Below are positions 3,292 through 42,196 of a DNA stretch of 59,732 nucleotides, piece by piece (within the stretch, counting starts at the first letter, position 1; the number at the start of each line of letters is the position of its first letter). This stretch comes from Methylococcaceae bacterium. Its GTDB lineage: Bacteria > Pseudomonadota > Gammaproteobacteria > Methylococcales > Methylomonadaceae. The notes under the pieces were generated by a model. The model saw only the letters and a list, made by a program, of their open reading frames with translations, did not search any database and had not been told where the DNA came from. The stretch is taken from assembly GCA_947505105.1 (NCBI GenBank), contig CANNKG010000008.1, forward strand, positions 1-59,732, read 5' to 3'. Made by a program: the position numbers and the translations under genes.

Positions 3292-3295
3292 GATC

Positions 3296-14044: not shown

Positions 14045-14063
14045 TCAACCTGCAGAGAATTCC

Positions 14064-14264: not shown

Positions 14265-14275
14265 GGATACTTGCC

Positions 14276-15437: not shown

Positions 15438-15484
15438 TTTTAATTAATGTCATAACTGGCTATACTAAGCTTTTGTATCATGGA

Positions 15485-16428: not shown

Positions 16429-17118
16429 TTAAATCAAAATGAGTAATTCGGTTTGGGCCCGTAAATAATCTTCTGGAATACCGATATCAATAAAATGTCC
16501 ATAGGATATAAATAACTCGAAATGTTGCTGTTTAACAGCCTGAGTTAAAAAATCATTTTCTAATGAAAATGCTTGAGCAACTTTAAAATCGTCCAGAAGA
16601 TTAAGCGGGAAAACGTAACATCCGGCATTGATCAAGCCGATGCCGGTTTGTCCTTTTTCGGAAAAGCCGGTGACTCGGTTATCGATATGTTCAAGACGAC
16701 CATAACGTTCGGTATTGGATAACTGACAGGCGACTATAATGGGTTTTTGGGCGGTTAACCATTGTTGCTCTACGATCTGGGCATTAAATTCAAGAAAAGT
16801 GTCGCCATTAAAAATGAAAACATGATCACTGTTGCATTTTTGCATTGCTTGTCTAATTGCGCCGCCCGTTCCAAGCGGCGTTTGTTCTATTTCATACTCA
16901 AGATCCATACCTGCGAAGGTATCGCCAAAATGGTCAATGATCGTATGAGCTAAATAGCCTAACGATAAAATGATTCGAGTAAAACCTTGTTGGGCAAGAG
17001 AAGCTAAGAGTATTTCAAGAAATGGCCGTCCGGCAATCGGCGCCATGGGTTTTGGCAAATCCGAAACGACGGATTGCAATCGGGTACCAAAGCCGCCGGC
17101 AAGAATAATTGCTTCCAT
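16429..17118 (-). CDS. hddC: Heptose-1-phosphate guanylyltransferase (HddC-like nucleotidyltransferase)
   Basis: A sugar-phosphate nucleotidyltransferase of 229 residues. It has the signature EAIILAGGFGTRLQSVVSDL followed by PKPMAPI (1–27), the acceptor-side GTGGAIRQA and the metal-binding FNGDTFLE. Length and the adjacent gmhA and hddA point to the last step of GDP-D-glycero-alpha-D-manno-heptose synthesis. Its start overlaps the gmhA stop by one base. Specificity for GTP rather than another NTP is inferred from the neighbours. Confidence 0.85.
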   Translation of the reverse strand: MEAIILAGGFGTRLQSVVSDLPKPMAPIAGRPFLEILLASLAQQGFTRIILSLGYLAHTIIDHFGDTFAGMDLEYEIEQTPLGTGGAIRQAMQKCNSDHVFIFNGDTFLEFNAQIVEQQWLTAQKPIIVACQLSNTERYGRLEHIDNRVTGFSEKGQTGIGLINAGCYVFPLNLLDDFKVAQAFSLENDFLTQAVKQQHFELFISYGHFIDIGIPEDYLRAQTELLILI

Positions 17119-17717
17119 TATTCCAATTCCTTGAACAAAGCGCGTTCAACTAAACCACATAAAGTATGGCCTAAAATCAAATGGCCCTCCTGAATTTTTG
17201 GAGTATCAAGCGAAGGGGTTCTTAATAAATAGTCACACAAGTCGGCCATTGGGTTATTTTCTTGATGGCCGGTCAAACCAAGGGTGACTAATTTTTTGTT
17301 TTTCGCGGTTTTTAACGCGGTCAAAATATTCGGAGACTTACCGGAGGTTGAATAAGCGATAAATAGATCTCCAGGATTCGCTTGAGCTTCAATTTGTCTG
17401 GCAAATAACATTTCAAAACCATAATCATTTCCGATAGATGTCAGAATTGAACTATCCGTCGTTAACGCCATGGCGGGCAAACCAGGACGATCAAAGGCAA
17501 AACGGCTGACCAGTTCCCCGGCAATGTGTTGGGCATCTGCTGCACTACCGCCGTTACCGGCAATCAGAATTTTACCGCCTTTTTGCAAACACTCAATACA
17601 GGCAAGGGCAGCTTGGGCAAGCGTAGCGAGTAATTGCTCGTCTGCCAACATGGTCGAGACGATTCGTTGCGATTCTGTAAATTGATTGACGATGTAGGAA
17701 TGCATCAAATTCTCCAA
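17118..17717 (-). CDS. gmhA: Sedoheptulose-7-phosphate isomerase
   Basis: GmhA turns sedoheptulose 7-phosphate into D-glycero-D-manno-heptose 7-phosphate. The 199-residue SIS-domain protein has the family motifs GGKILIAGNGGSAADAQHIA and ELVSRF, GNDYGFEMLFARQ and the end IQEGHLILGHTLCGLVERAL. It overlaps hddA by 13 bases and hddC by one, a tight heptose cassette. Confidence 0.93.
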   Translation of the reverse strand: MENLMHSYIVNQFTESQRIVSTMLADEQLLATLAQAALACIECLQKGGKILIAGNGGSAADAQHIAGELVSRFAFDRPGLPAMALTTDSSILTSIGNDYGFEMLFARQIEAQANPGDLFIAYSTSGKSPNILTALKTAKNKKLVTLGLTGHQENNPMADLCDYLLRTPSLDTPKIQEGHLILGHTLCGLVERALFKELE

Positions 17718-18730
17718 GCCTGGGTTCCGTATTTAGTAAAATGACAATTACTGACTTGTCCTTCAAAAGCGTTCAAGGTTCTCATGACGGCCATACGTTT
17801 GTCGGGTGGCACAAAAAACATCATAAAGCCCCCTCCGCCCGCACCGGAGACTTTACCCGCGAGGGCACCGGATGAGATCGCCGCCGTGTAAATTTCCTCG
17901 ATATGTGAATTGGAAACCGATTTTGCAGAACGTTTTTTGCTTTCCCAACCTAGGCGCATCGATTCGACAATGCCCTCGAAATCGCCTTTTAATAGACACT
18001 CTTTCATAACTAGGGCTTCTTGTTTAATACCGTGCATTGCTTCAATGGCCGGGATTGAACCAGATTCAACATTGCCTTTTTGGTCGGCAATGATTTTTGC
18101 CGATTCTCGAGACACTCCGGTATAGAACAGCACTAACGAGGCTTCTAGTTCACAGATAATCCAATTTTTGATGCGCAACGGATTAATCACGGCACGTTCG
18201 TCGGCATAAAACTCCATGAAATTAAAGCCACCGAATGTCGCTGAATATTGATCCTGGCGTCCACCGCCTAAGCCGCAATCGATGCGTTCGATTTGAAAAG
18301 CCAAGTGCGCGATAGTGTAGTCGTCCAACGGTAAATTCAGTAATTCCGCGAAGACTCGAATCATCACCACCACTAAAGTTGATGATGAACCTAAACCAGA
18401 ACCCGCAGGTGCATCGCAAAACGTGCTCAGTTCCATCGGGATCAATTTTCCATTATTATAATGATTAATCATATGGTTATATACCGCTTTATGCAGATCG
18501 AGCTTGCCGTTTAATTCGAGTGGTTCGGTAATAGCCTTTACATTTTCGGTTTGTTGGTCAGTAGCGACAAACCGGACGATGGGTTCATCCAGCGTTTTAA
18601 TAACCGCATAAGCGTAACGATCAATGGTGGCGTTAAGGACATAACCACCATGAATATCGCAATAGGGTGAAACGTCGGTTCCGCCACCGGCAAGACCAAG
18701 GCGCAACGGAGCGCGAGAGCGAACTATCAT
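17705..18730 (-). CDS. hddA: D-glycero-D-manno-heptose 7-phosphate kinase
   Basis: A GHMP-family kinase of 341 residues: N-terminal RSRAPLRLGLAGGGTDVSPY, the ATP loop DAPAGSGLGSSST (about 107–119) and the C-terminal GKVSGAGGGGFMMFF. It phosphorylates heptose 7-phosphate at C1 in the GDP-heptose branch. The next enzyme, the GmhB phosphatase, is not in this window and would have to come from elsewhere. It is transcribed with gmhA and hddC. Confidence 0.92.
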   Translation of the reverse strand: MIVRSRAPLRLGLAGGGTDVSPYCDIHGGYVLNATIDRYAYAVIKTLDEPIVRFVATDQQTENVKAITEPLELNGKLDLHKAVYNHMINHYNNGKLIPMELSTFCDAPAGSGLGSSSTLVVVMIRVFAELLNLPLDDYTIAHLAFQIERIDCGLGGGRQDQYSATFGGFNFMEFYADERAVINPLRIKNWIICELEASLVLFYTGVSRESAKIIADQKGNVESGSIPAIEAMHGIKQEALVMKECLLKGDFEGIVESMRLGWESKKRSAKSVSNSHIEEIYTAAISSGALAGKVSGAGGGGFMMFFVPPDKRMAVMRTLNAFEGQVSNCHFTKYGTQAWRI

Positions 18731-25506: not shown

Positions 25507-26205
25507 TCAGCTCAAATCGTAATGGGTGGTAAGACAAGTTTGAATAGTCGGCATGGGGTTAAACATCATGACGTCAAGGATCGATAACCAAGGGACAAAA
25601 GGGTGGTCAAATTGGGCATATTCAAACGGTTTAGCCTGAATAAATTGTAATTCGAGGCCTTGAGACTTAAAAATGTCTTTTGAATATAATTCTTTCCCGC
25701 CGATAGCATTGATATAAACATCGGCTTTACATGCCGAGCATAAGGCGAGCACTTTTTCTTGGCCTTTTAAGTCATGGTCGATGTTAATTTCAGACGAGAT
25801 CAGAATCTGGGTTTGAATTCCCAAATGTTGACAGAGCATAATCAGCGAATGGTGGATAAAACCAAATAGATTATTATCCTCGTAGTTGAGGATGCGTTCC
25901 AAAACCGGCAAGGTTTCATGATAATACGGGGCTTTACGGTAGGCGCCCTTAAATTGTTGTAACAGTTTGGCGCGCTTGAAATCCGGTGCGAGTTCGCGGG
26001 CACAGACGTCTAAAAAGTCCGAATCTTTTTTTAACGGCAGCGAAAATAACACGTCCTTGCCATTTTGGAGTAGACGATTACGATTAATCCAACCCTTTTT
26101 GGTGTATTGGATATTGTCGTAAACAATAAATTGGTCCACTGCCGCAAGCAGTTGAAAATATCCCACGTAGGGCAAAAAATAAGGCTGCATGATCGCAAGC
26201 TTCAT
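25507..26205 (-). CDS. wbqC: WbqC-family protein
   Basis: 232 residues with the WbqC opening KLAIMQPYFLPYVGYFQLLA and VDQFIVYDNIQYTKKGWINR. Members sit in O-antigen and capsule loci beside DegT-type aminotransferases and are thought to act on amino-sugar acylation. The precise reaction is not settled. Here it directly follows the aminotransferase (32 bases) in the operon. Confidence 0.9.
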   Translation of the reverse strand: MKLAIMQPYFLPYVGYFQLLAAVDQFIVYDNIQYTKKGWINRNRLLQNGKDVLFSLPLKKDSDFLDVCARELAPDFKRAKLLQQFKGAYRKAPYYHETLPVLERILNYEDNNLFGFIHHSLIMLCQHLGIQTQILISSEINIDHDLKGQEKVLALCSACKADVYINAIGGKELYSKDIFKSQGLELQFIQAKPFEYAQFDHPFVPWLSILDVMMFNPMPTIQTCLTTHYDLS

Positions 26206-26237: not shown

Positions 26238-27344
26238 TTATTGAATAGCAATCAGGCTCGTGATTTCGGTCACCAAAGCTTCATCGAGATCAGGGTAAAT
26301 AGGTAAACACAGCACTTGATAGGCGGCGGTGGTTGCAACCGGCAAATTATCGCGATGCGCGGAAGAAAGTCCCCGGTACATCGGAAACTCTGAAATTAAT
26401 GGATAAAAATAGCGGCGTGGGTGAATATTGTTATCTTTGAGTTTTTGGTAGAGCGCATCCCGGCTGATCGGATAGTCCGGCCCGACCAGAATCGGAAAAT
26501 AAGCGTAATTGGCGACCGTCTCGCCCGCATCCTGGAGGCAACGAATGCCTTTAACGCTCGCTAATTGCTCGCGGTAGAGCGCATCGATTTTTTGTCGTTT
26601 GGCAATCGCTTGATCGACATATTTGATCTGTAACAGTCCTAACGCGGCGTTGAATTCACTCATTTTGCCGTTGATGCCGGGCGCGACGACCGAGACTTCA
26701 CCGACGTGACCGAAATTCTTCAATTGATCGATACGCACTTTCGATTTGGCGTCCGGGCAAATGATTGCGCCGCCCTCGAAGGTATTGAAGACTTTGGTGG
26801 CGTGGAAACTCAGCACCGACAGATCGCCGTGCCTAAGAATACTGCCTGATGCATCTTGGACGCCAAAGGCGTGCGCGGCATCGTAAATGACTTTCAAGTT
26901 ATAGTTGTCGGCGATTTTTTGAATAGCATCCACATCGCATGGATGTCCATAACAATGAACCGGCATAATGCAGGTCGTATGCGGTGTTATTGCCGCTTCA
27001 ATCTTACTCGGGTCTAAATTAAGGGTATTGGGATCGATATCAACAAATACCGGTTTTATGCCGTTCCATAATAAGGAGTGCGAGGTTGCGACGAAAGAAT
27101 AGGGAGTTGTGATAACTTCCCCGGTGATTCGTAAGGATTGCAAAGCTGTTACTAGGGCAATGGTGCCGTTGGTAAACAGGCAAATATGTTCAACGCCCAG
27201 ATACTCGCACAGCGCCTCCTCGAGTTGATGATGGAAGGGTCCGCAATTGGTAAGGACCTTGTTTTCCCAAATTTGCTCCAAATAAGGGATAAATTCTTCA
27301 AGTGGAGGAAGGTAGGGTTGGGTAACAAAAGTCGTTTTTTTCAT
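26238..27344 (-). CDS. DegT/DnrJ/EryC1/StrS-type sugar aminotransferase
   Basis: A PLP-dependent enzyme of 368 residues. It has the fold-type-I features: FTNGTIALVTAL for phosphate binding, VIYDAAHAFG with Asp155, and the Schiff-base Lys184 in LSFHATKVFNTFEGGAI. The family makes amino sugars on nucleotide carriers. An adjacent WbqC and a GNAT gene in the same operon suggest an N-acylated amino sugar. The ketosugar-producing dehydratase is not seen intact in this window. Confidence 0.93.
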   Translation of the reverse strand: MKKTTFVTQPYLPPLEEFIPYLEQIWENKVLTNCGPFHHQLEEALCEYLGVEHICLFTNGTIALVTALQSLRITGEVITTPYSFVATSHSLLWNGIKPVFVDIDPNTLNLDPSKIEAAITPHTTCIMPVHCYGHPCDVDAIQKIADNYNLKVIYDAAHAFGVQDASGSILRHGDLSVLSFHATKVFNTFEGGAIICPDAKSKVRIDQLKNFGHVGEVSVVAPGINGKMSEFNAALGLLQIKYVDQAIAKRQKIDALYREQLASVKGIRCLQDAGETVANYAYFPILVGPDYPISRDALYQKLKDNNIHPRRYFYPLISEFPMYRGLSSAHRDNLPVATTAAYQVLCLPIYPDLDEALVTEITSLIAIQ

Positions 27345-27393: not shown

Positions 27394-30300
27394 TTATTTG
27401 ATAAGTCTGAACACTAATAATCCAGGCCCCAAATGGCCCATTTCTGGCGAGTTATAGCTTTCAACGTATGCCTCAGAGAAATCGCTCAGTTGCATTTCAT
27501 CCAAAACGTCCCAGCCAAAATCAGTAAACACCAGCGCCCCGTCGGCTGAAACCGGATTGCCATGAAAAAGGGGTGGCAACAGCTGTTCGAGCTGACCATC
27601 GACAAGTTTGGCGCGCGTAACCGAGTTATCGTACTGACTGTGAAATGGCAGGGTAGCGAGCATTACGCCGCCGGGTTTCAAAACCCGGGCGCATTCCTTA
27701 AATGCTTTTGCCGGGTGTGGAACATGTTCAAACACATCATTGCTCACGATAAGATCCAGGGAGGCATCAGCGAAACTCAACTGCTCTACATCTTCATGGC
27801 GAATGCCGTTGATTATCGCACCGCCTTCATATTCATGTCCCAAATATTCACTGCCGATAATGTTATGGTGACTGAAGTGAGATGTCACCCACACAAAAAT
27901 AGGCGTGACTTGCTCCATAAAATAAACTTCTTGCTGCGGGTCAGTGTTTAGCTGCTGCATAATAATTGCAGCGATCAAGCGTTGCCGATTGTTCATATGG
28001 CAAGATGGGCATTCCAGACGCTCACGCCAATTGGGTAACCAGCCATTTTTGAGCTGTGTGCCGCCGAATAGCATATCGACTAAAAAGTCTACTTTTTTAT
28101 GGCACGGAATGCAGAATCCCTCGACGGTGAAGCTTTGAGTCTTGGCGCTACCAAGTAAATCCCGTTCCAACTGCCGACTTTGGGCTAACGCATCGCTATG
28201 CGTAAAGGCATCAAATTCTTGCCGATTATGAAATGTCGCCAACGGTGTCAGATGGGTCAAATGATGCTTAATAATCCGCTGCGACGTATCCGAGCCCGAA
28301 AAGAGCGACAGCGGGTAGAGTCCGGGAAGGGTAGGGATACCGATATCCGCTAAAATATTATGCAATATTTTCCAGGCAGCTTCGGCGCCCCAGGTTTTCT
28401 TTGCAAAATTCAAGCTATTTTGACTGATGTTCGACCAAAGTTTCTCGTCAGAATAGACCTTCACAATTGCCTCGGCAAACTGTTCAGCATCATCGGCAAC
28501 CAGAATGTTTTCCCCTTCGGATAAAAACATACCTTCTGCGGCTAGCGAGGTTCCAACGACTGGCAAGCCAATCGCCATCGAAAAGCCAATTTTGCCCTTG
28601 ATACCGGCACCATAACGCAACGGGGCGACCGATAAGCGCATTTGATCAAACAAGCTATTGAGATCTTCTACGAAACCTTTAATAATTACATCTTTACCGG
28701 CAAGCGCCTCGATTTCAGGCGGCACTTGACTGCCAACGGCGAAAAACCGAACGCCCGGCAAGCGGGGGCGCAACAACGGCATGATTTCGCCGACAAAATA
28801 TTTCACCGCATCGACATTGGGTGGGTGTTGATAGCCACCTACGAAGACAATATCTTTTCTAGTCGAGAATCCTTGGCTGGTGCCGGGAATATCCATTATT
28901 AACGGAAAAACATGGATTTTTGCATCGGGTAATTCTTGACTCAGTATTTCCAGTTCAGTTGCGCTCACGACAATAGAAGAATCAACTGTACCTAGAATCG
29001 CCAATTCACGTTGTTTCATTTCATCCGCTTTTCTTTTCAGTGTCGGACTTTTCAACAAGTCGGCCTCGCGCGTCATTCTTAAATAGTGCAAATCCTGCGT
29101 GTGGTAGAGAATTTTAGCGTTCGGAGTGTATTTATGTATCACACTCAGATGCTTTTCAACGACTTTGGGACGAAATAAAAACACCAAATCATATTGTCTC
29201 GCAGTTTCTCTTAAATGTTGCTCAACCGATGTGCAATAAGGCGCATAAATCACTTCAATGCCGTTGCGTTGCAAATTCGGGGTGTAGTCAGGCATATAAA
29301 GAAAATTATCTTCAGGAATAAAGGTAACCTGAAAATCCATTTCACGGAGTAATAACAAAATATTAAATGCCGTAATTGAACCCGCATCCTGGTTCGGGGT
29401 AGGGGTGCAATGATCAAGAACCAGTACTCGGCGTTTTGCCATGCGATCTTTTGCATTGTCCGCATCTTGCCCTGGAAGTTGATGCGTGCTTAATTGAGTT
29501 TGCCAGCGTTGAAACAGCTTTTGGGAGTTTTCGATCTGATAACTCTTGGCACCTGAGTTTAAGTCAGTCCCCGAAGTAATGCCTTCATAATGAATGACGA
29601 CCGATAGCGGTTGATAAATCACCCGATAACCACGCTCGCGAATCTTCAGCGCCAAATCCGAATCCTCGCAATAGGCTGGCAAATAGTGCTCATCGAAACC
29701 GCCCAGTTCGTCAAAGAGTTGTTTAGGCACCATGATCGATGCGCCCGAACAGTAGTCAACTTCACGGGCATAATTGTATTGAGGCAGCAGCGGGTCTTGA
29801 TTGCGGCCGAAATTCCAGGCCGAGCCGTCTTGCCAGATAATCCCTCCTGCTTCTTGTAACTCACCGTTAGGGTAGACTAATTTTGAGCCGACAAAACCGG
29901 TGCCGGGTAAAAAAGTAAAGGTGCGCACCAGTTCATCCAGCCAGTGACCGGTAACTTCCGTATCGTTATTCAGAAAATGCAAGTAACTGCCTTTCGCAGC
30001 GGCAGCGCCGATATTACAAGAACGAATAAAACCTTGGTTTTTTGCATTGTTAATGAGCTTAAGGCCAGTAATTTGACGTAGTAATTCCTCTGAATCATCA
30101 GGCGAGCAATCATTGACCACGATAATTTCAAAAGCGCATTCGGGTAAATTTTGGGCGATGGAGTATAAACAGCGTAAGGTATAGTCGGATTTGCCATAGA
30201 TAGGAATGATGACCGATACCAGAGGCTCTAGATAACTTGCCAATTTGATAGACTGCGTGTCTATTTGCTGACTTTGAGGGAGTAACACCGGCACACTGGG

Positions 30301-32028
30301 CGAAAATGTTTGGGTAGCGGGTTGGCCTTCGCTGACGCGAAGAATCGAGGGCACATATTTAGCCATAATCGCCCGATGTTTGGCACGGGTATGACGACTC
30401 AACGGCAAGCTGACATAAGCTTTACCGGTGAGACGAATCATCGTTTTCGGAAGAGGGCGATCTAAGAGTCGGCGACTAGTGTTTTTTATCCCGTTTGGTA
30501 TCGTAGTGACGAGTTTAGGGCTGGTCAATTGCTGGATTGTGTTGCGTGCTTCGTTAAGCTGCCGATCTAAATCAAGCGCCCAGTGTCCGCGGTTAACGAC
30601 TTCAGTATTTAAGTCTACAAGTTGGGCTTCGAGTGCTGCTATTTTGGATTGATATTCAGTGATTTGAGATTCAAGCACCATGGCTTTTGAACCATAGCGC
30701 ACAATTTCGGCATCTAATGTCTCAAGCTCAGTCTCTCGTTCGCTTAATGCCAGTTCTAAAGCAGAGGCTTTTGCGGTGATATCGCCGATTTCTTGAGTCA
30801 GCTGGGTGTTTGTAGCTTGACATGTCGTTAATTGTTGGTTGAGCGTTAATGCCCATTCGCCATGTTTAGTGACTTCCCGATTCAATTCGGCGATGGTTGC
30901 ATCGTGTTCAATGGATTGTCGTTCCAAATTTAATGCCCACTCACCCACTTTGGTCAATTCGGCGTTCAATTCGGCGATCAGCGTGTCACGTTCAGCAAGC
31001 GACTCATGAAAGCAGTCAATTTCTAGCGTGTTGTGATCAATGGTTTGGTGAGCGCTTTCAAGCACTCTCGCTTGTTTATCAGCCAAACGCAGTGGGTAGC
31101 TTAATTTTGCAAAGCTATCGCTCCACTGCTGCAATTTCGCAACAAACTCCTGATCGTCTAAAGAAGCCTGGTTAAGCGCAATCGCGAGCAGTTCGTTATA
31201 GAGTTCTCGAGCCAATGGCGGACAATCAATATCTAACAATAAGTCATTCGCCGTGTAAGTGGTATGGCGTAATCCTGCATCGAGAAATTCATTTTGATAG
31301 CTCTCAAATTTAGCATCATCCATTTTCAGCGACAACGCGTCAGCAATTCGCGTCAGTTCCCGCTTGGGGGTTTGCATTAACTGATCGTAATCGACCACGA
31401 CCCGTTTGCTATTCAGGGTGTGATTCAAACCGGCCAGGACATGGCCAAGCCACAGTAAATAGCTTTTTTCAGCCTCGAAACCATCGCGCTTGGCGATGGA
31501 TTTGACCACGCTGAGCGGATTGCGAATCATCAATACATAGCTGATATTCCAATCCAAATGATCAAACACTTCTTTCCAAAACGGGATCAATTTTGCGACG
31601 CGTGGGTCTTTGAAACCAAAAAAAACTGAATTCCCCATTTTTTGGCGCAACAGTTCGGTGGCTCTCAGAATATAGCCCTTAGCGCGCAGCGTTTCCACAT
31701 CACTTGCTTGAATACTGCTTAGAAAGTGCCAATCGCTTTCCAGGACATTTAACATTTCAATATTGAAAGCATTAAGATCAAGATCTTCCCAAAAACCTTT
31801 AGTATTTACCTCTTTCGCGGGTGCTAGGGTATCGCCCAGTTCTACGCCCAACACCTGCAAGCCTCGCGTGATGGCGCTTGTTCCACTCCGATGCATTCCT
31901 AAGACGACAACCAGGGTAGGGGTTTTATGGCTGCTATCGTTTGGGGGTATGCGGGTATTTGTGGCTTTGACCACTGCTTTGCGATGGACGGATTGCATAT
32001 ACTCTGTAAGTTTGGGTATTTTAATCAA
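27394..32028 (-). CDS. Multidomain glycan enzyme: sulfotransferase-like, coiled coil, GT2, GT4, methyltransferase
   Basis: A 1,544-residue protein with five recognisable parts. (1) About 38–260: sulfotransferase-like, PAPS-loop-type GMHRSGTS (44–51) and MIRNPLSVVKSIAKRDGF. (2) About 315–500: coiled coil holding three variants of a GEWALxLxxQ module. (3) About 603–840: GT2 with VSVIIPIYGKSDYTLRCLYS, LHFLNNDTEVTG and YCEDSDLALKIRERG. (4) About 867–1225: GT4-like with DIVFVGGYQHPPNVDAVKYF and PLRYGAGIKGKIGFSMAIGL. (5) About 1300–1544: methyltransferase with CxxC pairs (CIPCHKK, CPSCHMN) and DLIVSNDVFEHVPHPAKAF. No signal peptide or clear membrane span. It probably assembles and modifies a glycan as one cytoplasmic machine; acceptor and sugars are unknown. 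Confidence 0.85.
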   Translation of the reverse strand: MIKIPKLTEYMQSVHRKAVVKATNTRIPPNDSSHKTPTLVVVLGMHRSGTSAITRGLQVLGVELGDTLAPAKEVNTKGFWEDLDLNAFNIEMLNVLESDWHFLSSIQASDVETLRAKGYILRATELLRQKMGNSVFFGFKDPRVAKLIPFWKEVFDHLDWNISYVLMIRNPLSVVKSIAKRDGFEAEKSYLLWLGHVLAGLNHTLNSKRVVVDYDQLMQTPKRELTRIADALSLKMDDAKFESYQNEFLDAGLRHTTYTANDLLLDIDCPPLARELYNELLAIALNQASLDDQEFVAKLQQWSDSFAKLSYPLRLADKQARVLESAHQTIDHNTLEIDCFHESLAERDTLIAELNAELTKVGEWALNLERQSIEHDATIAELNREVTKHGEWALTLNQQLTTCQATNTQLTQEIGDITAKASALELALSERETELETLDAEIVRYGSKAMVLESQITEYQSKIAALEAQLVDLNTEVVNRGHWALDLDRQLNEARNTIQQLTSPKLVTTIPNGIKNTSRRLLDRPLPKTMIRLTGKAYVSLPLSRHTRAKHRAIMAKYVPSILRVSEGQPATQTFSPSVPVLLPQSQQIDTQSIKLASYLEPLVSVIIPIYGKSDYTLRCLYSIAQNLPECAFEIIVVNDCSPDDSEELLRQITGLKLINNAKNQGFIRSCNIGAAAAKGSYLHFLNNDTEVTGHWLDELVRTFTFLPGTGFVGSKLVYPNGELQEAGGIIWQDGSAWNFGRNQDPLLPQYNYAREVDYCSGASIMVPKQLFDELGGFDEHYLPAYCEDSDLALKIRERGYRVIYQPLSVVIHYEGITSGTDLNSGAKSYQIENSQKLFQRWQTQLSTHQLPGQDADNAKDRMAKRRVLVLDHCTPTPNQDAGSITAFNILLLLREMDFQVTFIPEDNFLYMPDYTPNLQRNGIEVIYAPYCTSVEQHLRETARQYDLVFLFRPKVVEKHLSVIHKYTPNAKILYHTQDLHYLRMTREADLLKSPTLKRKADEMKQRELAILGTVDSSIVVSATELEILSQELPDAKIHVFPLIMDIPGTSQGFSTRKDIVFVGGYQHPPNVDAVKYFVGEIMPLLRPRLPGVRFFAVGSQVPPEIEALAGKDVIIKGFVEDLNSLFDQMRLSVAPLRYGAGIKGKIGFSMAIGLPVVGTSLAAEGMFLSEGENILVADDAEQFAEAIVKVYSDEKLWSNISQNSLNFAKKTWGAEAAWKILHNILADIGIPTLPGLYPLSLFSGSDTSQRIIKHHLTHLTPLATFHNRQEFDAFTHSDALAQSRQLERDLLGSAKTQSFTVEGFCIPCHKKVDFLVDMLFGGTQLKNGWLPNWRERLECPSCHMNNRQRLIAAIIMQQLNTDPQQEVYFMEQVTPIFVWVTSHFSHHNIIGSEYLGHEYEGGAIINGIRHEDVEQLSFADASLDLIVSNDVFEHVPHPAKAFKECARVLKPGGVMLATLPFHSQYDNSVTRAKLVDGQLEQLLPPLFHGNPVSADGALVFTDFGWDVLDEMQLSDFSEAYVESYNSPEMGHLGPGLLVFRLIK

Positions 32029-32091: not shown

Positions 32092-33060
32092 TTATTTCAT
32101 CAACAAAAAGCTAACAATATTACTAAGATTTTGACTTAAGCTGTTCGCGTAAAATTTATAGGTAAAGATTAAGGCTAATTTTTTTATGAAATTATAATGC
32201 CCAAGATTTGAATACGCAAAGATCATGCCGTGAATTTCTTGGTCGAGCAAGCTTTCAAATTGTCGCCCAAATGCAGACGCTTGGCGCTGAGTTGCTAACA
32301 AGAATCGATGGGCATTGAGTTGCAGCAGTTTTTGGAGAAGCTTCTGAAGCTTAAACGTTTTGGCCCCGATGGCGTTATGAGAATGTTGTCGATACAAGAT
32401 GGTCGGTTGCTTAACGGCAATAATCTTTCCAAACGCCGCACCGATTAGAGCCAGCCACCAATCGTGCATGATTGCTGCTTCTGGAATCGGCAGTGCCAGT
32501 TGTTTGGTCGCCTGATTGATCATAAGGGTGTTGCCGGTAATTACATTTTGGACTAAAAGCTGGTGAAGCTCGGCATGATCGGGATTTAGCTTCGCATAAG
32601 CCCAGAAAGAAGACGCGATGATCTGCAAATCACGGTTAACCACCTTTAAGTCGGTATGGACCAGCAACGGCGTGGTGGGGGTGTTGAGTTCCGCTACATG
32701 CATCGCGTCCAGTGTTAAGGCAATTTTTTCAGGAAGCCAGATGTCATCCTGATCGCAAAACATGAGGTAAGGCGCATCGGCGGCACTTAGCAGCGTGGCA
32801 AAGCTGGCGCAGCATCCGAGTCGGCCTGACTCGGAGTCAAGCCATAAAGCTTGCTTGGGATGCTGCTGCACAAAACGTTCAATCAAAACCCGTGTCTGAT
32901 CCGAGGAACCGTCGTCGCGGATGATCAGACGCCAGTGTGGGTAACTTTGAGCTACTAATGAATCCAGCAGCGCCTCAAGATATTCAGCGCCTTGATAGGT
33001 TGATAACAGAATATCGATTCGGGAAATATCTTGTGATGATAGTAAGTGGTTGGATTTCAT
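32092..33060 (-). CDS. GT2 glycosyltransferase (rhamnosyltransferase-like)
   Basis: The start is taken as the ATG of MKSNHLLSS (33060) rather than a TTG 15 bases upstream. 322 residues: IDILLSTYQGAEYLEALLDS and IIRDDGSSDQTRVLI (nucleotide binding), then FCDQDDIW (DxD-type metal site) and MHDWWLALIGAAFG (acceptor region), as in bacterial rhamnosyl- and related transferases. It lies between wzt and the multidomain gene in the same direction. Confidence 0.88.
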   Translation of the reverse strand: MKSNHLLSSQDISRIDILLSTYQGAEYLEALLDSLVAQSYPHWRLIIRDDGSSDQTRVLIERFVQQHPKQALWLDSESGRLGCCASFATLLSAADAPYLMFCDQDDIWLPEKIALTLDAMHVAELNTPTTPLLVHTDLKVVNRDLQIIASSFWAYAKLNPDHAELHQLLVQNVITGNTLMINQATKQLALPIPEAAIMHDWWLALIGAAFGKIIAVKQPTILYRQHSHNAIGAKTFKLQKLLQKLLQLNAHRFLLATQRQASAFGRQFESLLDQEIHGMIFAYSNLGHYNFIKKLALIFTYKFYANSLSQNLSNIVSFLLMK

Positions 33061-33081
33061 GAATTCAAAAAGCAAAAAAAC

Positions 33082-34446
33082 TTATCTTGGTGTTACCGAT
33101 GCTCTACATTTAAAATCGACAATTCCGGTGGTGATACTTGTTTGTTCAGAAATTACCCGAAACATCGCTATATCAATAAGACGATGTAAATAAGTTTCGT
33201 TGCCATTGATTTCGCCTACAACTCCCGCATTAAGAAAGTAAACAGCTGGATTGAGGTTGCAACAGAATTGAAACTCAACTTGATAAATTGAGCCTGCTTC
33301 GACATAGACAACACTGTCTCTTGCTGACGGAGCAGAGACTCCCCCGCCTAGTTCAATCCCTGAAGTAGTTTTGATAAGCATGCCAAAGCGAACATTTCTG
33401 GCACTTTGAGTAAATGAAACTGCGTATGTATAGAGATAGGTTCTTCCGCGAATAAGGTTGTTCACGGGGGTATGGGTCAGCGTTAAAATTTGAGGATGTT
33501 TAATGTAAGCGCCATAAGATTCGTACTCAATTGTGCTACTGGGGCATAAATTGGGATCGAAACTTTCAGGAAGCTCTTCCGGGATAGTTTTATCAATATC
33601 CTGAATAGTCGGCGTCTCGTCGAGATCATGGTCAATGTGAATAAGCTCTGATAATGTGCATTCTTGTCGAATCATTGCACGGATCGCTTCACGCTTATCG
33701 GGTGGTGTATATAATAATTTTTGATAACGTCCGACAATTTGTTTCGGAGAGCCGCTAGCCAACATTTCTCCAGCATCTATCAAAATTGCTCGGTCACACA
33801 ATTCGACGATAGTAGTGCCAGAGTGGGATACAAATAAGATGGTAGCCCCTTGGGCTCGTATTTGCTCTATTTTTGAAAAGCATTTGCGCTGAAATAACTC
33901 ATCGCCGACCGAAAGTGCCTCATCGACCACCAGGATTTGTGGGTTGACATTAATCGCGACCGCAAAGGCAAGACGGACGCTCATACCGCTGGAATAGGTT
34001 TTAACCGGTTGCTCGATGAAATCACCAATATCCGCAAACGCCACGATATCTTCATACCGTTCAGCAATTTCCGCCTGACTTAAGCCGAGTACTGTCGCAT
34101 TCATATAAATATTTTCACGTCCCGAAAATTCAGGATTAAAGCCGGATCCGAGTTCTAACAAGGCCGCGACGCGTCCATAGGTTTCTACGCTGCCGTGAGT
34201 AGGTGTGAGAGTTCCGCAGATAAGTTGTAAGAGCGTCGATTTGCCTGAACCGTTGCGCCCGACGATTCCGACAGTTTCGCCGGTTTTAATTTCGAATGAA
34301 ATATCGCGTAGCGCCCAGAACTCCTTGAAATATTGTTTTTTACTGCCCAGAAAACCTTGAAATAAGCGTTGATGTGGTTTGTCGTAAATTTGATAGCATT
34401 TACTCAATTGATTGACATTAATCGCAATTTCGGTGGTTTTTGTCAT
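33082..34446 (-). CDS. wzt: ABC transporter ATP-binding protein for polysaccharide export (Wzt-type)
   Basis: 454 residues. The ATPase part (about 1–245) has Walker A GRNGSGKS (63–70), the signature YSSGMSVRLAFAV and Walker B ILVVDEALSVGD. The C-terminal domain (about 300–454) is a beta-sandwich like the carbohydrate-binding Wzt-C domain (GMLIKTTSGIELGGGVS, GSIYQVEFQF). Such proteins recognise the finished O-polysaccharide and power its export through the permease Wzm. No ABC-2 permease gene is found on either side in this window. Confidence 0.93.
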   Translation of the reverse strand: MTKTTEIAINVNQLSKCYQIYDKPHQRLFQGFLGSKKQYFKEFWALRDISFEIKTGETVGIVGRNGSGKSTLLQLICGTLTPTHGSVETYGRVAALLELGSGFNPEFSGRENIYMNATVLGLSQAEIAERYEDIVAFADIGDFIEQPVKTYSSGMSVRLAFAVAINVNPQILVVDEALSVGDELFQRKCFSKIEQIRAQGATILFVSHSGTTIVELCDRAILIDAGEMLASGSPKQIVGRYQKLLYTPPDKREAIRAMIRQECTLSELIHIDHDLDETPTIQDIDKTIPEELPESFDPNLCPSSTIEYESYGAYIKHPQILTLTHTPVNNLIRGRTYLYTYAVSFTQSARNVRFGMLIKTTSGIELGGGVSAPSARDSVVYVEAGSIYQVEFQFCCNLNPAVYFLNAGVVGEINGNETYLHRLIDIAMFRVISEQTSITTGIVDFKCRASVTPR

Positions 34447-34539: not shown

Positions 34540-35556
34540 TTAGAGTTTTGTTAATGGCGCTTCGATGCAGCGATAGGAAATAAATGCTGTTAATGCCGTC
34601 AATACAAAAAAAACCAAACACTTGCCAATATCGTTAAGCCAAAATGGGGCGTGCTGTAAAACTAAATCTAATACTAAGATGTGGCCTAAATAGGCGCTAA
34701 AGCTGACTTTGCCCCAAAATACAAGAAAGCGCGATTCTAACAGGCTACGAATACTGTTCGTGCAATGACTGGCGCAAATAATCAATAGTGCGCTCAATAC
34801 TGCAAATAATAGAAACTGATCGTGAAAAAAGTTTTGAGCAACCGTTTGACCAGTAACGATACGGTAAACCATTGGACTTAAAACAAATTCAGCTGTCAGG
34901 CAAAGCCAAACGCCGATGTTAAATAATCGATTGTAAAGTTTAGATTCAAAGATCATTTGATAATGTTCGACAATGAAAGCGCTCAAACATCCTGTAACAA
35001 AGATGGGTAGAAATGGCAACAATTCTGGTATGGGTTGCGCGGTGGGTGGATAAAACAGCTGCCACTGAGAACAAAATATTAGACTCATAAACATAGTGGT
35101 TTTCGGCCAAAGGCTAAAGGCAAATGCTAGCCAAGGCAGTATGAAATAAAACTTAAACTCGACCGGAATTGTCCAAAAAAAACTCTTACCGTCAAGCAGT
35201 AGCAAGCTATATCCAATATCCCTGGGAGTGAGTACTAAACTACCCTGGCCGTATTTAAAAAAACCATAATAGGTGAGTAGTGACAATAGAAAGAGTGGGT
35301 AGATCCGTAATATGCGGCGCTTGGCATAATGTAATAGTAAGGTAATTTTGAGGGGGTGTTGCGCCTCGGCTTGAATGATTTGCCGAGTTAATAGAAATGC
35401 GCTGAGTACGAAAAACAAATACACGCCATTATGCCCGACGCCAGCAAAACTTAAGCCAGGTAATAAATATAACCCGACATTCGAAGAATGCGAAAGCAAT
35501 ACGAGTAATACCGCAGAGCCGCGAACACCAGTTAATACGTTAATTTGTGATTTCAT
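34540..35556 (-). CDS. Acyltransferase-3 family membrane protein (OafA-like)
   Basis: A 338-residue integral membrane protein with about ten hydrophobic segments. It has the family opening LTGVRGSAVLLVLLSHSS, an R-R-I-L-R-I-Y-P motif (KRRILRIYPLFLLSLLTYYG) and a C-terminal ISYRCIEAPLTKL. These enzymes O-acetylate surface sugars using cytoplasmic acetyl-CoA. It is the first gene of the polysaccharide operon in the direction of transcription, 93 bases before wzt. Confidence 0.9.
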   Translation of the reverse strand: MKSQINVLTGVRGSAVLLVLLSHSSNVGLYLLPGLSFAGVGHNGVYLFFVLSAFLLTRQIIQAEAQHPLKITLLLHYAKRRILRIYPLFLLSLLTYYGFFKYGQGSLVLTPRDIGYSLLLLDGKSFFWTIPVEFKFYFILPWLAFAFSLWPKTTMFMSLIFCSQWQLFYPPTAQPIPELLPFLPIFVTGCLSAFIVEHYQMIFESKLYNRLFNIGVWLCLTAEFVLSPMVYRIVTGQTVAQNFFHDQFLLFAVLSALLIICASHCTNSIRSLLESRFLVFWGKVSFSAYLGHILVLDLVLQHAPFWLNDIGKCLVFFVLTALTAFISYRCIEAPLTKL

Positions 35557-35640
35557 TAAAGTTTCTGTGTTGCGTTTTGATAGGATGAGAGAAAAATATT
35601 CGTTAAGTAGGGAAAGTTGTGTTCAACTCGGATGATAAGC

Positions 35641-35705
35641 CCGTAGAAATCCAGGAATAGCGTAGGCCTTATTTCCCCGGATTCCGCAGGCTCCATCCAG
35701 GCTAC
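35641..35705. repeat. REP-like repeat, copy 1
   Basis: A copy of the local repeat: ATCCAGGAATAGCG at the left, CCCCGGATTCCGCAGGCTCC in the middle and CATCCAGGCTACC at the right, so the ends (ATCCAGG and its near-complement) can pair. It and copy 2 form a tandem pair at about 118-bp period. Confidence 0.75.
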
Positions 35706-35756
35706 CCTGTTCGAATAAGGGGAAATGTTTTTCCAGACTCAGTCCATAGTCCGTCT

Positions 35757-35825
35757 CCTGGATGAAATCCAGGAACAGCGTAGGCCTTATTTCCCCGGAT
35801 TCCGTAAGCTCCATCCAGGCTACCT
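35757..35825. repeat. REP-like repeat, copy 2
   Basis: The same repeat as copy 1 with a fuller left end (CCTGGATGAAATCCAGG, an imperfect palindrome) and GCTCCATCCAGGCTACC at the right. It immediately follows the 3' tail of the RAYT gene. The 35706–35756 spacer repeats that tail. Confidence 0.78.
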
Positions 35826-35855
35826 TGTTCGAACAGGGGGAAAGTTTCTCCATAC

Positions 35856-36356
35856 TCAGATTCCGGTTTGGCTATGCCCCCAGTCCAATCTGGAGCTAAT
35901 AGACCACAGCGGATATACCGGTGGAACATCTGCCAAGTATTGCACTAAATCATGTTTGATAGGATTCCAGTGACAATAATCAACATGGTGTGCATAGTCA
36001 TGTTCATCACGTATCGTGTGTTCCCAGAACCGTCGTTGCCACAGCAGATATTCACCGCGATTATCGCGGATTAACGATACGTCAGTTGCACGTACCGAAT
36101 GCGTGAAACGGGATTTTATTGCCTGCCAGTGCCTAGAATAATCAGAATCACCTTGAGGCAAAGTCCAAACGGTGTGTAAATGTTCGGGCAATAACACAAT
36201 GGCATCAATAGTAAAAGGTCGCTCAGTCCGAACCGAACGAAAAGCATCGCGAAGTAGATCAACATGCTGTACTAAAATATCAGAAGACCGGTCGCGCAAG
36301 GTTACCGTAAAAAAATAAGTCCCACCCGCAATGCGATTTCGCCGATACAATACCAT
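35856..36356 (-). pseudogene. REP-associated tyrosine transposase (RAYT), frameshifted near the C-terminus
   Basis: A Y1/HUH-type single-strand transposase of the IS200-related RAYT group. It opens RNRIAGGTYFFTVTLRDR, has the metal-binding H-x-H (59–61, in LLPEHLHTVWTLP) and the nucleophile Tyr127 in HHVDYCHWNPIKH. After about residue 143 this frame ends in atypical sequence. The expected C-terminus (FHRYIRCGLLAPDWTGGI and onward) lies in another frame starting near 35929, so a small deletion or insertion sits near 35930–35945. The catalytic core is complete. REP-like repeats flank it on both sides, the usual arrangement of a RAYT and its substrates. Confidence 0.85.
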
Positions 36357-36407
36357 GTCAATTCAATCGGAAAGTTAAAAGGAAATATCCACATTTTACA
36401 AGCTCCA

Positions 36408-36477
36408 TAGCCTGGATGAAATCCAGGAACAGCCGTGGCGTCACTCCCCAGATTCCGCAAGCTCCATCCAGGTTACC
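36408..36477. repeat. REP-like repeat, copy 3
   Basis: This copy runs from TAGCCTGGATGAAATCCAGG to GCTCCATCCAGGTTACC. It sits about 50 bases upstream of the RAYT start and is followed (36478–36500) by a copy of the 3' end of the neighbouring secreted-protein gene. Confidence 0.78.
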
Positions 36478-36505
36478 TTTATTTAAACGAGATATCCCAG
36501 ACCCG

Positions 36506-36575
36506 TACCCTGGATGAAATCCAGGAATAGCGGTGACATTGCTCCCCGGATTCCGCAAGCTCCATCCAGGCTACC
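36506..36575. repeat. REP-like repeat, copy 4
   Basis: The same repeat 98 bases after copy 3, directly abutting the stop codon of the secreted-protein gene at 36577. Copies 3 and 4 are the tandem duplication on the right side of the RAYT gene. Confidence 0.78.
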
Positions 36576-39508: not shown

Positions 39509-41683
39509 TTATCGTGCAGTCGCATCCCAATGCATTTGATTTTGAAACGCATCGGTTAAATAAGTCGCATCGGCGGTGGCGGTAACGATATGCGGCGTAA
39601 TCAAGACCACCATTTCGGTAATCCGGTCACTGCGGGTATCATTTCTAAATAATTGACCCAGCCAGGGGAGGTCGCCTAAATAGGGAATTTTATTTTGGGT
39701 TCGGCCTTCGTTATGGGTAATTAAGCCGCCAATCATCACGGTTTGTCCCGAGTCAGAAACCAATACAGTTTGGACATGACGTTTAAAAATCGGCGGGGTA
39801 TTGTTGGTTGAATCGCCCGCTTCGCTGACTTCCTGGCTGATTTCTAATTCCACTTGGCCGCCCTGCAAGATTGTCGGGGTAAATTTTAAGATCACCCCGG
39901 TATCGACATATTTATAGCTATTGAGCTGATTGAGCTGGCCTGAACTGCTGGTGCCCGATTGCGCGCTGCCGATTGAGGAGGACAGAACCGCGACTTGAGT
40001 ACCGACCTGAATCGAGGCGGATTCATTGTCTTTGGTCAAGAGACGCGGGCTCGACAGAATTTTGGCGCTGCCGTCTTTGACCATCGCCGAGATGCGCGCC
40101 ATAATGCCGGCGGCACCATTAACATAGGCATAGCTGATGCCACCGGTCATTGCGCCTAAACCGAGTCCGGTCAGCGCGTTGACGATACCGCCTTCGGAGG
40201 TAGGGTCGTCGTGTTGGAAACGCCATTCCACGCCGAGTTGCGAGGCTTTATCGAGAGTGATGTCGGCGACGGTGGCTTCGATTAAGACTTGGCGCGGCAC
40301 CCGGTCCAGTTGTTGCAGCATGGTGTAGGCAGCGCGATAGGCGCGCGAAGGACCGACAAAAATCAGGGCATTACGTTCGTTATCGACAATAACGCGCAGG
40401 CCATTGCCTTCCAGAACATCGACGCCGTTTTTAGTGTTTTTGCCTGATTTGATCGTGGCGGCGCTTTGCAGCCCGCCAGTGCTTGAACCTTGGGTGCCGC
40501 CCATGCCGTCGCGGTTGTTGGTGCCTCCTTGATTGGCAAACGAACCTGCCAGCGGTGATTCGCTGGTATCGGGCTGATTTTGTTGCCCCTTATCTTTACC
40601 GAGGATGCCGCCTAGCACTTGGCCGAGTCCTTTGGCATTACTGTGTTTGACAAAATAAATAAAGGTGTTGTTCTCCTCGCCGGCGGCCTCCACGGTATCG
40701 ACACTTTCGAGCCATTGGTCGACCATATGGGTCCAGGTCGAATCCGGTGAGACTACGACGACCGCATTAATCGGTTCGACGACCAGTAAATGGACGCCAT
40801 ATTCGGTGCCGGTTTTACTGACCGGGATACTTTGGGCGGCAAGAAACTCCGTTAAGAGTTTGGCGAGCGGCGCGGCTTGCCAATAGACCGGGCGAATCAG
40901 GGTCAGTTTTTTATGCGCAAAGCCGGGTCGGTCAATTAATTTAATCGCCTGTTGATAGGTGGCAATGCGATCCGGCATGCCAATCACGACCAGCGCGTTG
41001 AGGCGTTTATTAGGGAGGACTTCACCGGTTTGTCCGGTATCCATAAAGTGGCGGGTAAACACCATGGCTTCTTCGGGAGTGGTGTAGCGCAATGGAATAA
41101 TGGTCATCGCGCGGCCCAACTTTAACAGTAGTTTGGCGTTTTCACTGAGTACCTGTGGTGAGCTGTTCTGGGTTTTGCTGGTCGGTAGTACCCGTAAGCC
41201 GCCCTGAGGTGACCAGGCCAGAAATATGTCGTAGGCGCGGAGCGCTTGTTCGACCATGTCCAGTAAGGGGCGTGGCTGAAGCGGTTCGGTGACATGGATG
41301 GTCACCGGGTCCTCGCGGTTGGTGATGGTCGCGTCCAATTCGAAGGTAAGGCCTAAAATTTCGCCGAGCGCCAGATGAATAAAGTCATTGAGCGGCATCG
41401 CATCGATATTGATGGTGACCGGATGGTCGGGGAGTTTTAATTGCGCGCTGGCTTCCGGGGTTAAGGCTTTCCATTCATGCTCGGGTAAACCCGACAAGGC
41501 CTGGAGTCGGTCTTTTTTGGAGAGTTCTTGAACTTCAGGCTGAACATCCGCCAGACTGGTTTTGTGCGGCGCTTCGGGAAGTTGTTGAGGGAGATCCATA
41601 CGCACCGGCTTGATAAAATCGCAAGCGCTGAGCAGGGCAATACAGGCAATCAGGTTAAGGCTTTTTACCGAATAAGTAGACAT
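39509..41683 (-). CDS. gspD: Type II secretion secretin GspD
   Basis: The outer-membrane channel of the type II secretion system. A lipoprotein signal (LIACIALLSAC, Cys21) is followed by an N0 domain (about 88–180), N1–N3 repeats (about 190–460, with a Gln/Gly/Ser-rich loop in N3) and the secretin core (about 465–710: VPRQVLIEATVADITLDKAS, GLITHNEGRTQNKIPYLGDL, VVLITPHIV). At 724 residues it is of normal size. It overlaps the gspC-like gene by 29 bases and is last in the operon. Confidence 0.93.
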   Translation of the reverse strand: MSTYSVKSLNLIACIALLSACDFIKPVRMDLPQQLPEAPHKTSLADVQPEVQELSKKDRLQALSGLPEHEWKALTPEASAQLKLPDHPVTINIDAMPLNDFIHLALGEILGLTFELDATITNREDPVTIHVTEPLQPRPLLDMVEQALRAYDIFLAWSPQGGLRVLPTSKTQNSSPQVLSENAKLLLKLGRAMTIIPLRYTTPEEAMVFTRHFMDTGQTGEVLPNKRLNALVVIGMPDRIATYQQAIKLIDRPGFAHKKLTLIRPVYWQAAPLAKLLTEFLAAQSIPVSKTGTEYGVHLLVVEPINAVVVVSPDSTWTHMVDQWLESVDTVEAAGEENNTFIYFVKHSNAKGLGQVLGGILGKDKGQQNQPDTSESPLAGSFANQGGTNNRDGMGGTQGSSTGGLQSAATIKSGKNTKNGVDVLEGNGLRVIVDNERNALIFVGPSRAYRAAYTMLQQLDRVPRQVLIEATVADITLDKASQLGVEWRFQHDDPTSEGGIVNALTGLGLGAMTGGISYAYVNGAAGIMARISAMVKDGSAKILSSPRLLTKDNESASIQVGTQVAVLSSSIGSAQSGTSSSGQLNQLNSYKYVDTGVILKFTPTILQGGQVELEISQEVSEAGDSTNNTPPIFKRHVQTVLVSDSGQTVMIGGLITHNEGRTQNKIPYLGDLPWLGQLFRNDTRSDRITEMVVLITPHIVTATADATYLTDAFQNQMHWDATAR

Positions 41684-42101
41684 TATGTTTTTCTGCGTTT
41701 TTTTCTAAGACGATACCGTCGATGAAGATGTTATGAAGTATTGCGCCATCCGGCAATTGGTCGTTGGCATGAAATTTTTTAAGTTTTTTATCGGTTTTTA
41801 CATAAACAGAATTCGGCAAGAGGATTCCTTTAAGCTGCCACTCGGTTACGATGGGTTGTTCGGTTTTGGTCGGATCTTGAGGCGCGCTGGCGGTTTTGGT
41901 TTCTGGAATTTGACCGCGCTGCTTGTCCCATAGGTTGTGCTGCAGAATTTGGTTTAATAAATCGGGATCCTGAGTTTCGGGTGATGTGGCAAGCGCTGGC
42001 GGTGCTATGGTCGGTAAGCCAGGAATTTCCTGCTCTTGCCATAATGTCATCAGCGGAATTCCGATCACCAATAACCAAAGGATTATAAAATATTTTTTCA
42101 C
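41655..42101 (-). CDS. gspC: GspC-like inner-membrane protein (short form)
   Basis: 148 residues: one N-terminal membrane span (about 4–20), a proline-rich linker with DLLNQILQHNLWDKQRGQIP and a homology-region-like domain (VTEWQLKGILLPNSVYVKTD). GspC links the inner-membrane platform to GspD. The C-terminal PDZ domain of classical GspC is missing. Placement just before gspD is the usual one. PilP-type proteins have a similar layout. Confidence 0.7.
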   Translation of the reverse strand: MKKYFIILWLLVIGIPLMTLWQEQEIPGLPTIAPPALATSPETQDPDLLNQILQHNLWDKQRGQIPETKTASAPQDPTKTEQPIVTEWQLKGILLPNSVYVKTDKKLKKFHANDQLPDGAILHNIFIDGIVLEKNAEKHNVYLFGKKP

Positions 42102-42196
42102 CGTTGCTCGTGTTTGTGTATTTTGGAGTTTATTCTACTACACTCCCCTTGCGCTTGCATGGCTGTGACCTGACGCTTAGATTCATTGTCGTTAAC

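Follow-up and report, generated by a model that had tools for sequence, protein, structure and literature searches.

Architecture and locus

What ends a glycan chain, and how an exporter recognises the finished end, are the questions raised by a locus in which one reading frame joins a sulfotransferase (ST), a coiled coil, two glycosyltransferase modules (GT2 and GT4) and a methyltransferase (MT)-like domain close to a wzt gene. A preliminary description of the window (the whole stretch of DNA analysed, 59,732 nucleotides) had read the encoded protein as a machine that caps an ABC-exported glycan and sets its chain length, the coiled-coil rod being a possible ruler. This part of the proposal is supported, as are the ST signatures and fold and the linkage to Wzt. 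The five-module combination given there, with its coordinates (Table 1), was also correct: the 1,544 codons make up one open frame with a TTG start and no internal stop, and Pfam places Sulfotransfer_3 at residues 40-238 (E 4e-7), Glycos_transf_2 at 605-732, Glyco_trans_1_4 (GT4) at 1058-1194 and Methyltransf_11 at 1409-1457. The true start of the protein may lie downstream of the TTG, because in close relatives about 10 residues precede the ST domain. The protein is of a known kind, the coiled-coil polymerase and chain terminator proteins of ABC-exported glycans, with the ST (39-256), the presumed terminator, at the far end of the coil (from residue 310) from the GT2 (602-843) and GT4 (867-1215) modules.

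The wzt product passes the Pfam cut-offs for both the ABC ATPase and Wzt_C, confirming a Wzt with its C-terminal domain two genes upstream of the large gene. On the same strand, downstream of the large gene, the DegT and WbqC genes are followed by two weak GH32-like genes, by GNAT, methyltransferase, GT2 and GtrA-domain genes, and then by a heptose-type set that may possibly provide GDP-heptose, its HddA, phosphoheptose isomerase and HddC matches being below the NCBIfam cut-offs. A RAYT gene (REP-associated tyrosine transposase) is found at 35856-36356, just upstream of the cluster.

Table 1. Position of the large protein, its modules and neighbouring genes in the window.
Feature	Coordinates	Strand	Basis
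1,544-aa protein, ST head-coiled coil-GT2-GT4-methyltransferase-like domain	27394..32028	(-)	
ST head, residues 39-256, proposed chain terminator	31261..31914	(-)	Sulfotransfer_3, family profile, motifs, fold
Coiled-coil rod, modelled helix, residues 310-473, proposed ruler	30610..31101	(-)	AlphaFold model, 3.5-residue period
Coil end and linker, residues 474-601	30226..30609	(-)	Mostly low model confidence
GT2 module, residues 602-843	29500..30225	(-)	Pfam and family profile
GT4 module, residues 867-1215	28384..29430	(-)	Pfam and family profile
Methyltransferase-like domain, residues 1260-1544	27397..28251	(-)	Pfam, family profile, fold
Stand-alone GT2 gene separating wzt from the large gene	32092..33075	(-)	Pfam
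wzt, ABC-transporter ATPase with C-terminal carbohydrate-binding domain	33082..34446	(-)	PF00005 86 bits, PF14524 94 bits
Wzt_C domain, sulfotransferase-associated type	33115..33531	(-)	Wzt_C comparisons
Acyl_transf_3 acyltransferase, upstream of wzt	34540..35556	(-)	Pfam
DegT/DnrJ/EryC1 sugar aminotransferase, downstream of the large gene	26238..27344	(-)	Profile match
WbqC-like protein, downstream of the large gene	25507..26205	(-)	Pfam
GHMP kinase, SIS isomerase, nucleotidyltransferase	16429..18730	(-)	Best NCBIfam: HddA, phosphoheptose isomerase, HddC

Sulfotransferase head and sulfate supply

The N-terminal domain, earlier called sulfotransferase-like, is predicted by its modelled fold and conserved signatures to be a PAPS-dependent ST. 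An M-H-x-S-G-x-S loop, K-D-P and R...S...R (R140...S148...R152 in alignment numbering) are invariant in 13 aligned ST heads, and nearly the same set of residues is conserved when 21 heads are aligned. The loop and the R...S...R we take to be the 5'-phosphosulfate-binding loop and the 3'-phosphate-binding motif, respectively. Residues for PAPS binding, whose absence had been named beforehand as grounds for rejecting the proposed system, are thus conserved across the aligned heads. The AlphaFold model of the domain is confident (about 95 pLDDT) and the nine best structural matches listed (Z 15.4-14.6 over 206-215 residues) are sulfotransferases, PAP being bound in several of them; PAP-bound TPST2 (3ap2) and the ST domain of an olefin synthase (4gox) match at Z 15.3-15.4 with 16-20% identity, both belonging to proteins with another function. 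Fold comparison is decisive here, the match to solved structures by sequence profile being weak (best E 0.0016).

The query genome (5.1 Mb) encodes an APS kinase on contig C21, and in the window, at a distance of 13-16 kb from the large gene, the opposite strand carries sulfate permease and CysD genes. CysD is encoded again on contig C15, in a copy interrupted by a stop. Two related loci have an APS kinase gene close to wzt: in L024 it separates wzm from wzt, and in L148 it neighbours both wzt and an ST-type gene. Loci that have an ST contain APS-kinase domains in 9 of 46 cases, those lacking one in 3 of 139 (Fisher 2e-4), the profile used having been built from L024 and L148, both of which are among the nine positive loci.

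Coiled-coil rod and C-terminal domain

Residues 310-473 form one helix of about 164 residues in the AlphaFold model, in which pLDDT is at least 70 up to about residue 420 and low beyond about 430, and hydrophobic residues recur between 315 and 505 with a 3.5-residue period matched by none of 2000 shuffles. The segment at 474-601 is the counterpart of an SxSWRLTxPLR-type segment present in 12 of 60 relatives and is possibly membrane-proximal. Three GEWALxLxxQ repeats had been reported in the coil, which was itself suggested as a ruler or trimerisation rod. Their number stands, G.WAL.L..Q occurring exactly three times in the protein (at 362, 390 and 481). Of the 60 proteins, the query among them, whose N-terminal part is long, 12 carry a GxWA-type motif, nine of these carriers having a single copy 127-137 residues ahead of the GT2 domain, and more than one copy is found only in the query and L020 (2 of 60); GEWAL was rejected as a counted ruler unit on these frequencies. 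The query's copies are nevertheless spaced by multiples of seven (28 and 91, or 56 and 35 via a degenerate copy).

The C-terminal domain is modelled with a class I methyltransferase-like fold (pLDDT 83), and the Foldseek matches listed for it are methyltransferases (E 6e-8 to 1e-5), to be regarded as distant because TM by target length is 0.23-0.57. CxxC...CxxC is present in 9 of 10 aligned relatives, the query included. The glycine-rich SAM-binding motif I, a trait of class I methyltransferases (PMC11231755, in part), was not found in the 10 aligned sequences, which have E-[QR]-x-T-x-x-[YF] after the first core strand, and for lack of these glycines we do not class the domain as a proven SAM enzyme. 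It is fused to the core in nine of the 77 proteins described below and is encoded by a separate gene in L079, L076 and L101.

Head exchange on a common GT2-GT4 core

A scan of species genomes identified 74 loci with the GT2-GT4 core, giving 77 proteins with the query and two second copies, most of which have the two modules about 24 residues apart. Heads assigned by hand comprise MT (20), ST (13), none (11), unknown or truncated (9), TPR (7), GT2-type (6), GT4-type (6), ST2 (2), DUF4915 (2) and GT99 (1). ST2 is a second ST-like head type; genes of this type in L014, L027 and L151 have no sulfotransferase Pfam match and that of L153 matches Sulfotransfer_3 only at 7e-4. The head is repeatedly swapped on the common core: in a tree of the 77 cores the ST label requires 11 changes, of which strongly supported branches force at least 7, the corresponding numbers for the MT label being 15 and at least 8, and the fully supported 27-row clade that includes the query holds MT (11), ST (6), DUF4915 (2) and GT2 (2) heads and four more groups. 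In L031 the head site of the same core type (core similarity to the query 0.73, normalised score) is occupied by GT99, the family of the experimentally known WbbB terminator (PMC11231755, in part).

A Wzt is encoded in the examined DNA of 39 of the 74 loci. Counting the query and leaving aside L130 and L142, which duplicate L039 and L026, 20 GT2-GT4 proteins have an ST head. A Wzt bearing a carbohydrate-binding module (CBM) accompanies three (query, L024 and, as a fragment, L009), only a short Wzt (224-326 aa) eight, and no Wzt in the locus DNA examined seven, the contigs of the remaining two being too short to judge. Recognition by Wzt_C can therefore not hold for all ST-headed proteins. The preliminary description had counted homologues unlinked to Wzt against its reading; for 7 of the 18 ST-headed proteins that could be judged no Wzt is found in the locus DNA examined, and this objection therefore applies in part.

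Wzt_C follows the head

Within Wzt, the chain end is read by Wzt_C (PMC9445017, in part). If the head makes that end, Wzt_C is expected to follow the head and not the core. Across 15 clade loci, incompletely independent, with neighbouring genes moving together and with same-head pairs that are mostly methyltransferase pairs (ST and ST2 contribute one pair each), Wzt_C similarity was 0.547 for the same head and 0.073 for different heads (0 of 5000 permutations as high), whereas the core gave 0.714 and 0.730 (4272 of 5000) and the Wzt ATPase part 0.821 and 0.685 (0 of 5000). The wider set of 19 loci, being 24 Wzt_C loci minus two 'unknown', two 'none' and L029 (a near-copy of L017), gave 0.402 against 0.065 for Wzt_C (0 of 5000), 0.737 against 0.628 for the ATPase part (34 of 5000) and 0.561 against 0.611 for the core. 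The ATPase part tracks the head more weakly than Wzt_C does, as whole-gene transfer would give.

The query Wzt_C is closest to that of L024 (0.553), the one further locus of that set to combine an ST head with a long Wzt, followed by DUF4915-headed L029 (0.37) and L017 (0.35), with all others at 0.13 or less. Both L017 and L029 combine an ST-type Wzt_C with an ST gene several kb downstream; a hidden ST was sought in the DUF4915 head of L017 and not found there. Three MT-headed loci added later (L102, L137 and L138) have MT-type Wzt_C, that of L128, whose core protein lacks a head, fits the MT block, and that of GT2-headed L106 fits no block (best 0.08). The other ST-headed protein of the 77 with a fused methyltransferase, from Thiomargarita (L009), has a truncated Wzt just upstream, the Wzt_C of which falls in the ST-associated group (best L024 at 0.355, query 0.338). 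A conserved basic patch or pocket was sought in the alignment of ST-type Wzt_C and none was clear.

In the reverse direction, a search with the query Wzt_C alone through 369 genomes from the class and 311 from the order, a few of which belong to both sets, gave 11 other places at E 1e-12: six share 45-70% identity with the query and five 27-31%. In each of the six close relatives, one of the first two downstream genes on the same strand is of ST type. Of 60 baseline Wzt_C loci, two have an ST within the first three same-strand downstream genes and four on either strand of the locus DNA examined (Fisher 3e-7 and 2e-6, respectively, against the six), a few baseline STs possibly having been missed because they were sought by motif and by profiles of the known-set STs and not by a Pfam scan of every gene. 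The baseline represents 60 of 90 Wzt_C places after leaving out 2 in the own genome, 8 already in the set, 1 at a contig end and the 19 lowest-scoring.

The ST belongs to the family of the query head in L145, L146, L147 and L149. It is joined to different GT modules in L145 and in L147, which runs off its contig, and is a separate gene in L146 (433 aa) and L149 (a complete 288-aa ORF). Short ST-type genes of a different kind from the query ST are found in L144 (248 aa) and L148 (239 aa); the latter matches Sulfotransfer_2 at 1e-4, and the former, without a Pfam match of its own, was counted as ST-type via its L148 homologue (E 2e-35, 1e-33). Since the ST is short or separate in L149, L144 and L148, its pairing with Wzt_C does not need the rod. 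The distant relatives are accompanied by Sulfotransfer_2 (L150), Sulfotransfer_3 (L152), an ST2-type gene (L151 and L153) or a methyltransferase (L154). In a ranking of 94 Wzt_C by how similar they are to that of the query, the top sixteen all come from loci with an ST-type gene, with the exception of MT-headed L154, whose Wzt_C (0.163) is as close to the query as the weaker ST cases.

Proposed mechanism and alternatives

On balance we favour a polymerase with a built-in terminator, in which the ST head caps the chain with sulfate and the linked Wzt_C reads the sulfated end. The GT2 and GT4 modules, at the membrane end, would build the glycan on its lipid, and the coiled coil would hold the PAPS-dependent ST up to about 25 nm away, a distance calculated from the 164 modelled helical residues at 1.5 A, of which the last third has low confidence. 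With the ST held at the length of the coil, only chains long enough to reach it would be capped. The head would then add sulfate to the growing, non-reducing end, elongation would stop, and the C-terminal domain of the linked Wzt would recognise the sulfated end and let the chain enter the ABC transporter. In this scheme the methyltransferase-like domain at the C-terminus would be accessory and may modify a chain sugar. Terminal sulfation, the ruler function, recognition of sulfate by Wzt_C and placement at the membrane are what we infer from the arrangement of modules and the comparisons above.

The ST could instead act inside the chain, sulfating residues within the repeating unit, with Wzt_C reading a repeated sulfated epitope or something unrelated and the rod only tethering the enzyme. 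Stand-alone STs of sulfated capsules have been proposed to act in this way. There are sulfated capsules with ABC transporters and PAPS genes (PMC11766843, in part), and the many ST-headed relatives without a CBM-bearing Wzt, like the short ST-type genes off the rod in L144, L148 and L149, fit such a role. We nevertheless regard it as unlikely, because the head site is shared with GT99, methyltransferase heads have a layout like that of WbdD and O7 ORF6 (PMC11231755, in part), the CBMs of Wzt are known to read cap-bearing chains (PMC9445017, in part) and Wzt_C tracks the head.

That tracking might be due to physical linkage if wzt recombined as one block with the neighbouring 5' end of the large gene, without functional pairing. 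Direct abutment of wzt on the large gene in many loci, with gaps of a few bases, would favour such a block, as would the tracking of the head by the Wzt ATPase part. It is quite improbable given that a GT2 gene separates the two genes in the query, that the ST lies several kb from the ST-type Wzt_C in L017 and L029, that the same type of Wzt_C meets the same ST family with other GT partners or alone in L145, L146 and L147, and that more distant Wzt_C accompany other ST types in L150-L153.

There is little to recommend the view that the locus is decayed or inactive in the query organism. No ABC2_membrane (wzm) match was found in the window at E 0.001 and no wzm lies beside its wzt, and the RAYT gene borders the cluster, but the large gene and wzt are intact open frames and the genome has an orphan wzm on contig C46. 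The closest matches of this wzm in our set are the wzm of CBM-type systems, and it is the nearest candidate for the permease partner of the Wzt in the window.

Least credible is a cap added by the C-terminal methyltransferase with the ST as decorator, as the preliminary description had it: methyl caps are known in the ABC export pathway (PMC9445017, in part), but we rejected this domain as the likelier cap. It is located at the polymerase end, either fused behind the GTs or encoded by a separate gene, it lacks the usual glycines at the motif I position, and its presence does not predict Wzt_C (4877 of 5000 shuffles as high), whereas the head does track Wzt_C.

Relation to known systems

A 2022 paper lists methylation, (methyl-)phosphorylation and unique sugars such as Kdo as export caps (PMC9445017, in part). 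Returning to the terminal sulfation that we favour, the wider generalisation is one towards which we lean only slightly: that sulfate joins methyl, methyl-phosphate and Kdo as a class of export cap that ends the chain, being set by rod-mounted and sometimes stand-alone STs and read by a dedicated Wzt_C lineage, with enzyme and reader exchanged jointly between conserved polymerases. If true, the list of export caps would gain a sulfate cap served by a separate family of Wzt readers, and bacteria could change the terminus and the export licence together while leaving the polymer unchanged. Co-exchange of head and Wzt_C offers a sequence-only way to predict the target of a Wzt carbohydrate-binding domain, and matched head and Wzt_C parts would serve glycan engineering. 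Among the matches listed for open-licence PubMed Central literature there was no paper on a sulfotransferase terminator or sulfate export cap, and an ST in terminator position would be a cap chemistry for which we found no description there.

In Aeromonas salmonicida, the wbsalmo cluster has wzt, a small sulfotransferase-domain ORF19 and wbbB, so that, as in the query, a sulfotransferase-domain gene adjoins a CBM-size wzt and a multi-GT enzyme (PMC4483657, in part). Unlike the query ST, ORF19 is a separate gene, and the likeness drawn here is one of gene layout. Its authors noted no such residue in the known O-antigen structure and left ORF19 unexplained (PMC4483657, in part).

WbdD of E. coli O9a, a kinase-methyltransferase with a coiled-coil ruler, resembles the query in having its capping enzyme, putative in the query, at the distal end of the coiled coil, but has no GT modules in the same chain and makes a methyl-phosphate cap (PMC11231755, in part). 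WbbB of K. pneumoniae O12 is a GT99 beta-Kdo terminator fused to two GTs and combines polymerization and termination in a single protein with a ruler, the latter proposed for the query, and a GT99 head is found on the query's own core type in L031; its cap is a Kdo sugar, and no ST or methyltransferase is described for it in the relevant part of the source (PMC11231755). The most similar layout is that of Klebsiella pneumoniae O7 ORF6, a methyltransferase-kinase/coiled coil/GT2-GT2 protein with linked Wzm/Wzt, in which an N-terminal terminator, a coiled-coil spacer and two polymerase GTs are likewise joined in one chain, whereas the query has a sulfotransferase in place of the methyltransferase and kinase, a GT2-GT4 polymerase and an extra C-terminal methyltransferase-like domain (PMC11231755, in part). 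The architecture being already of a known kind (PMC11231755, in part), 'undescribed system' was too strong a term; what is new is probably the sulfotransferase as terminator together with its matching Wzt_C lineage, set on a known coiled-coil polymerase-terminator with Wzm/Wzt export.

Transporter genes and clusters elsewhere in the genome

An orphan wzm is encoded on another contig of the same genome (C46), which also encodes a NifB-like protein (called by eye); no wzt was found near this wzm within the 9 kb read. It is possible that this gene is the partner of the orphan wzt of the window. Two further clusters of this genome place a CBM-type Wzt beside multi-domain GTs, one of which (on C84) features a methyltransferase-like N-terminus and an adjacent Wzm.

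Other gene groups of the window

A REP-associated tyrosine transposase lies just upstream of the wzt and acyltransferase genes, surrounded by short ORFs that resemble one another by eye and may reflect repeats matching this transposase. A sulfate permease gene neighbors cysD, no CysN was found among the scanned window genes, and the second CysD of the genome (contig C15) is interrupted by a stop. The window also encodes a Type II secretion/pseudopilin cluster and two proteins of identical architecture, between whose genes sits a PhoX-like gene on the opposite strand.

Features of the window and of compared loci
Feature	Locus	Position
Sulfate permease	window	10935-12512
CysD	window	13112-14044
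Short ORFs	window	35600-36560
REP-associated tyrosine transposase	window	35856-36356
Secretin, PilN-like, T2SSK, N-methylation pseudopilins, T2SSF, T2SSE	window	39509-49441
GNAT + carbon-nitrogen hydrolase	window	50563-52089
GNAT + carbon-nitrogen hydrolase	window	56044-57567
Orphan wzm	L215 (C46)	1203-2102
Wzt/GT cluster	L091 (C84)	10173-16592
Wzt/GT cluster	L092 (C208)	3-6705
DUF4915-headed protein, Pseudomonas	L017	8618-12811
DUF4915-headed protein, Pseudomonas	L029	8660-12811
Tandem-core protein	L102	11287-17868
Kinase-like-headed protein, Bacilli	L064	9263-12376

Other heads and layouts on the GT2-GT4 core

Two Pseudomonas core proteins carry a DUF4915 head (domain match made for L017); both loci encode a Wzt_C of the sulfotransferase-associated type, with a Sulfotransfer_3 gene several kb downstream. 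A 2,194-residue protein combines one methyltransferase head with at least two tandem GT2-GT4 cores, immediately downstream of a CBM-type Wzt. The head of a core protein from Bacilli had no match in a Pfam scan; judged by eye it resembles a small-molecule kinase, and is possibly a phosphate-type terminator.
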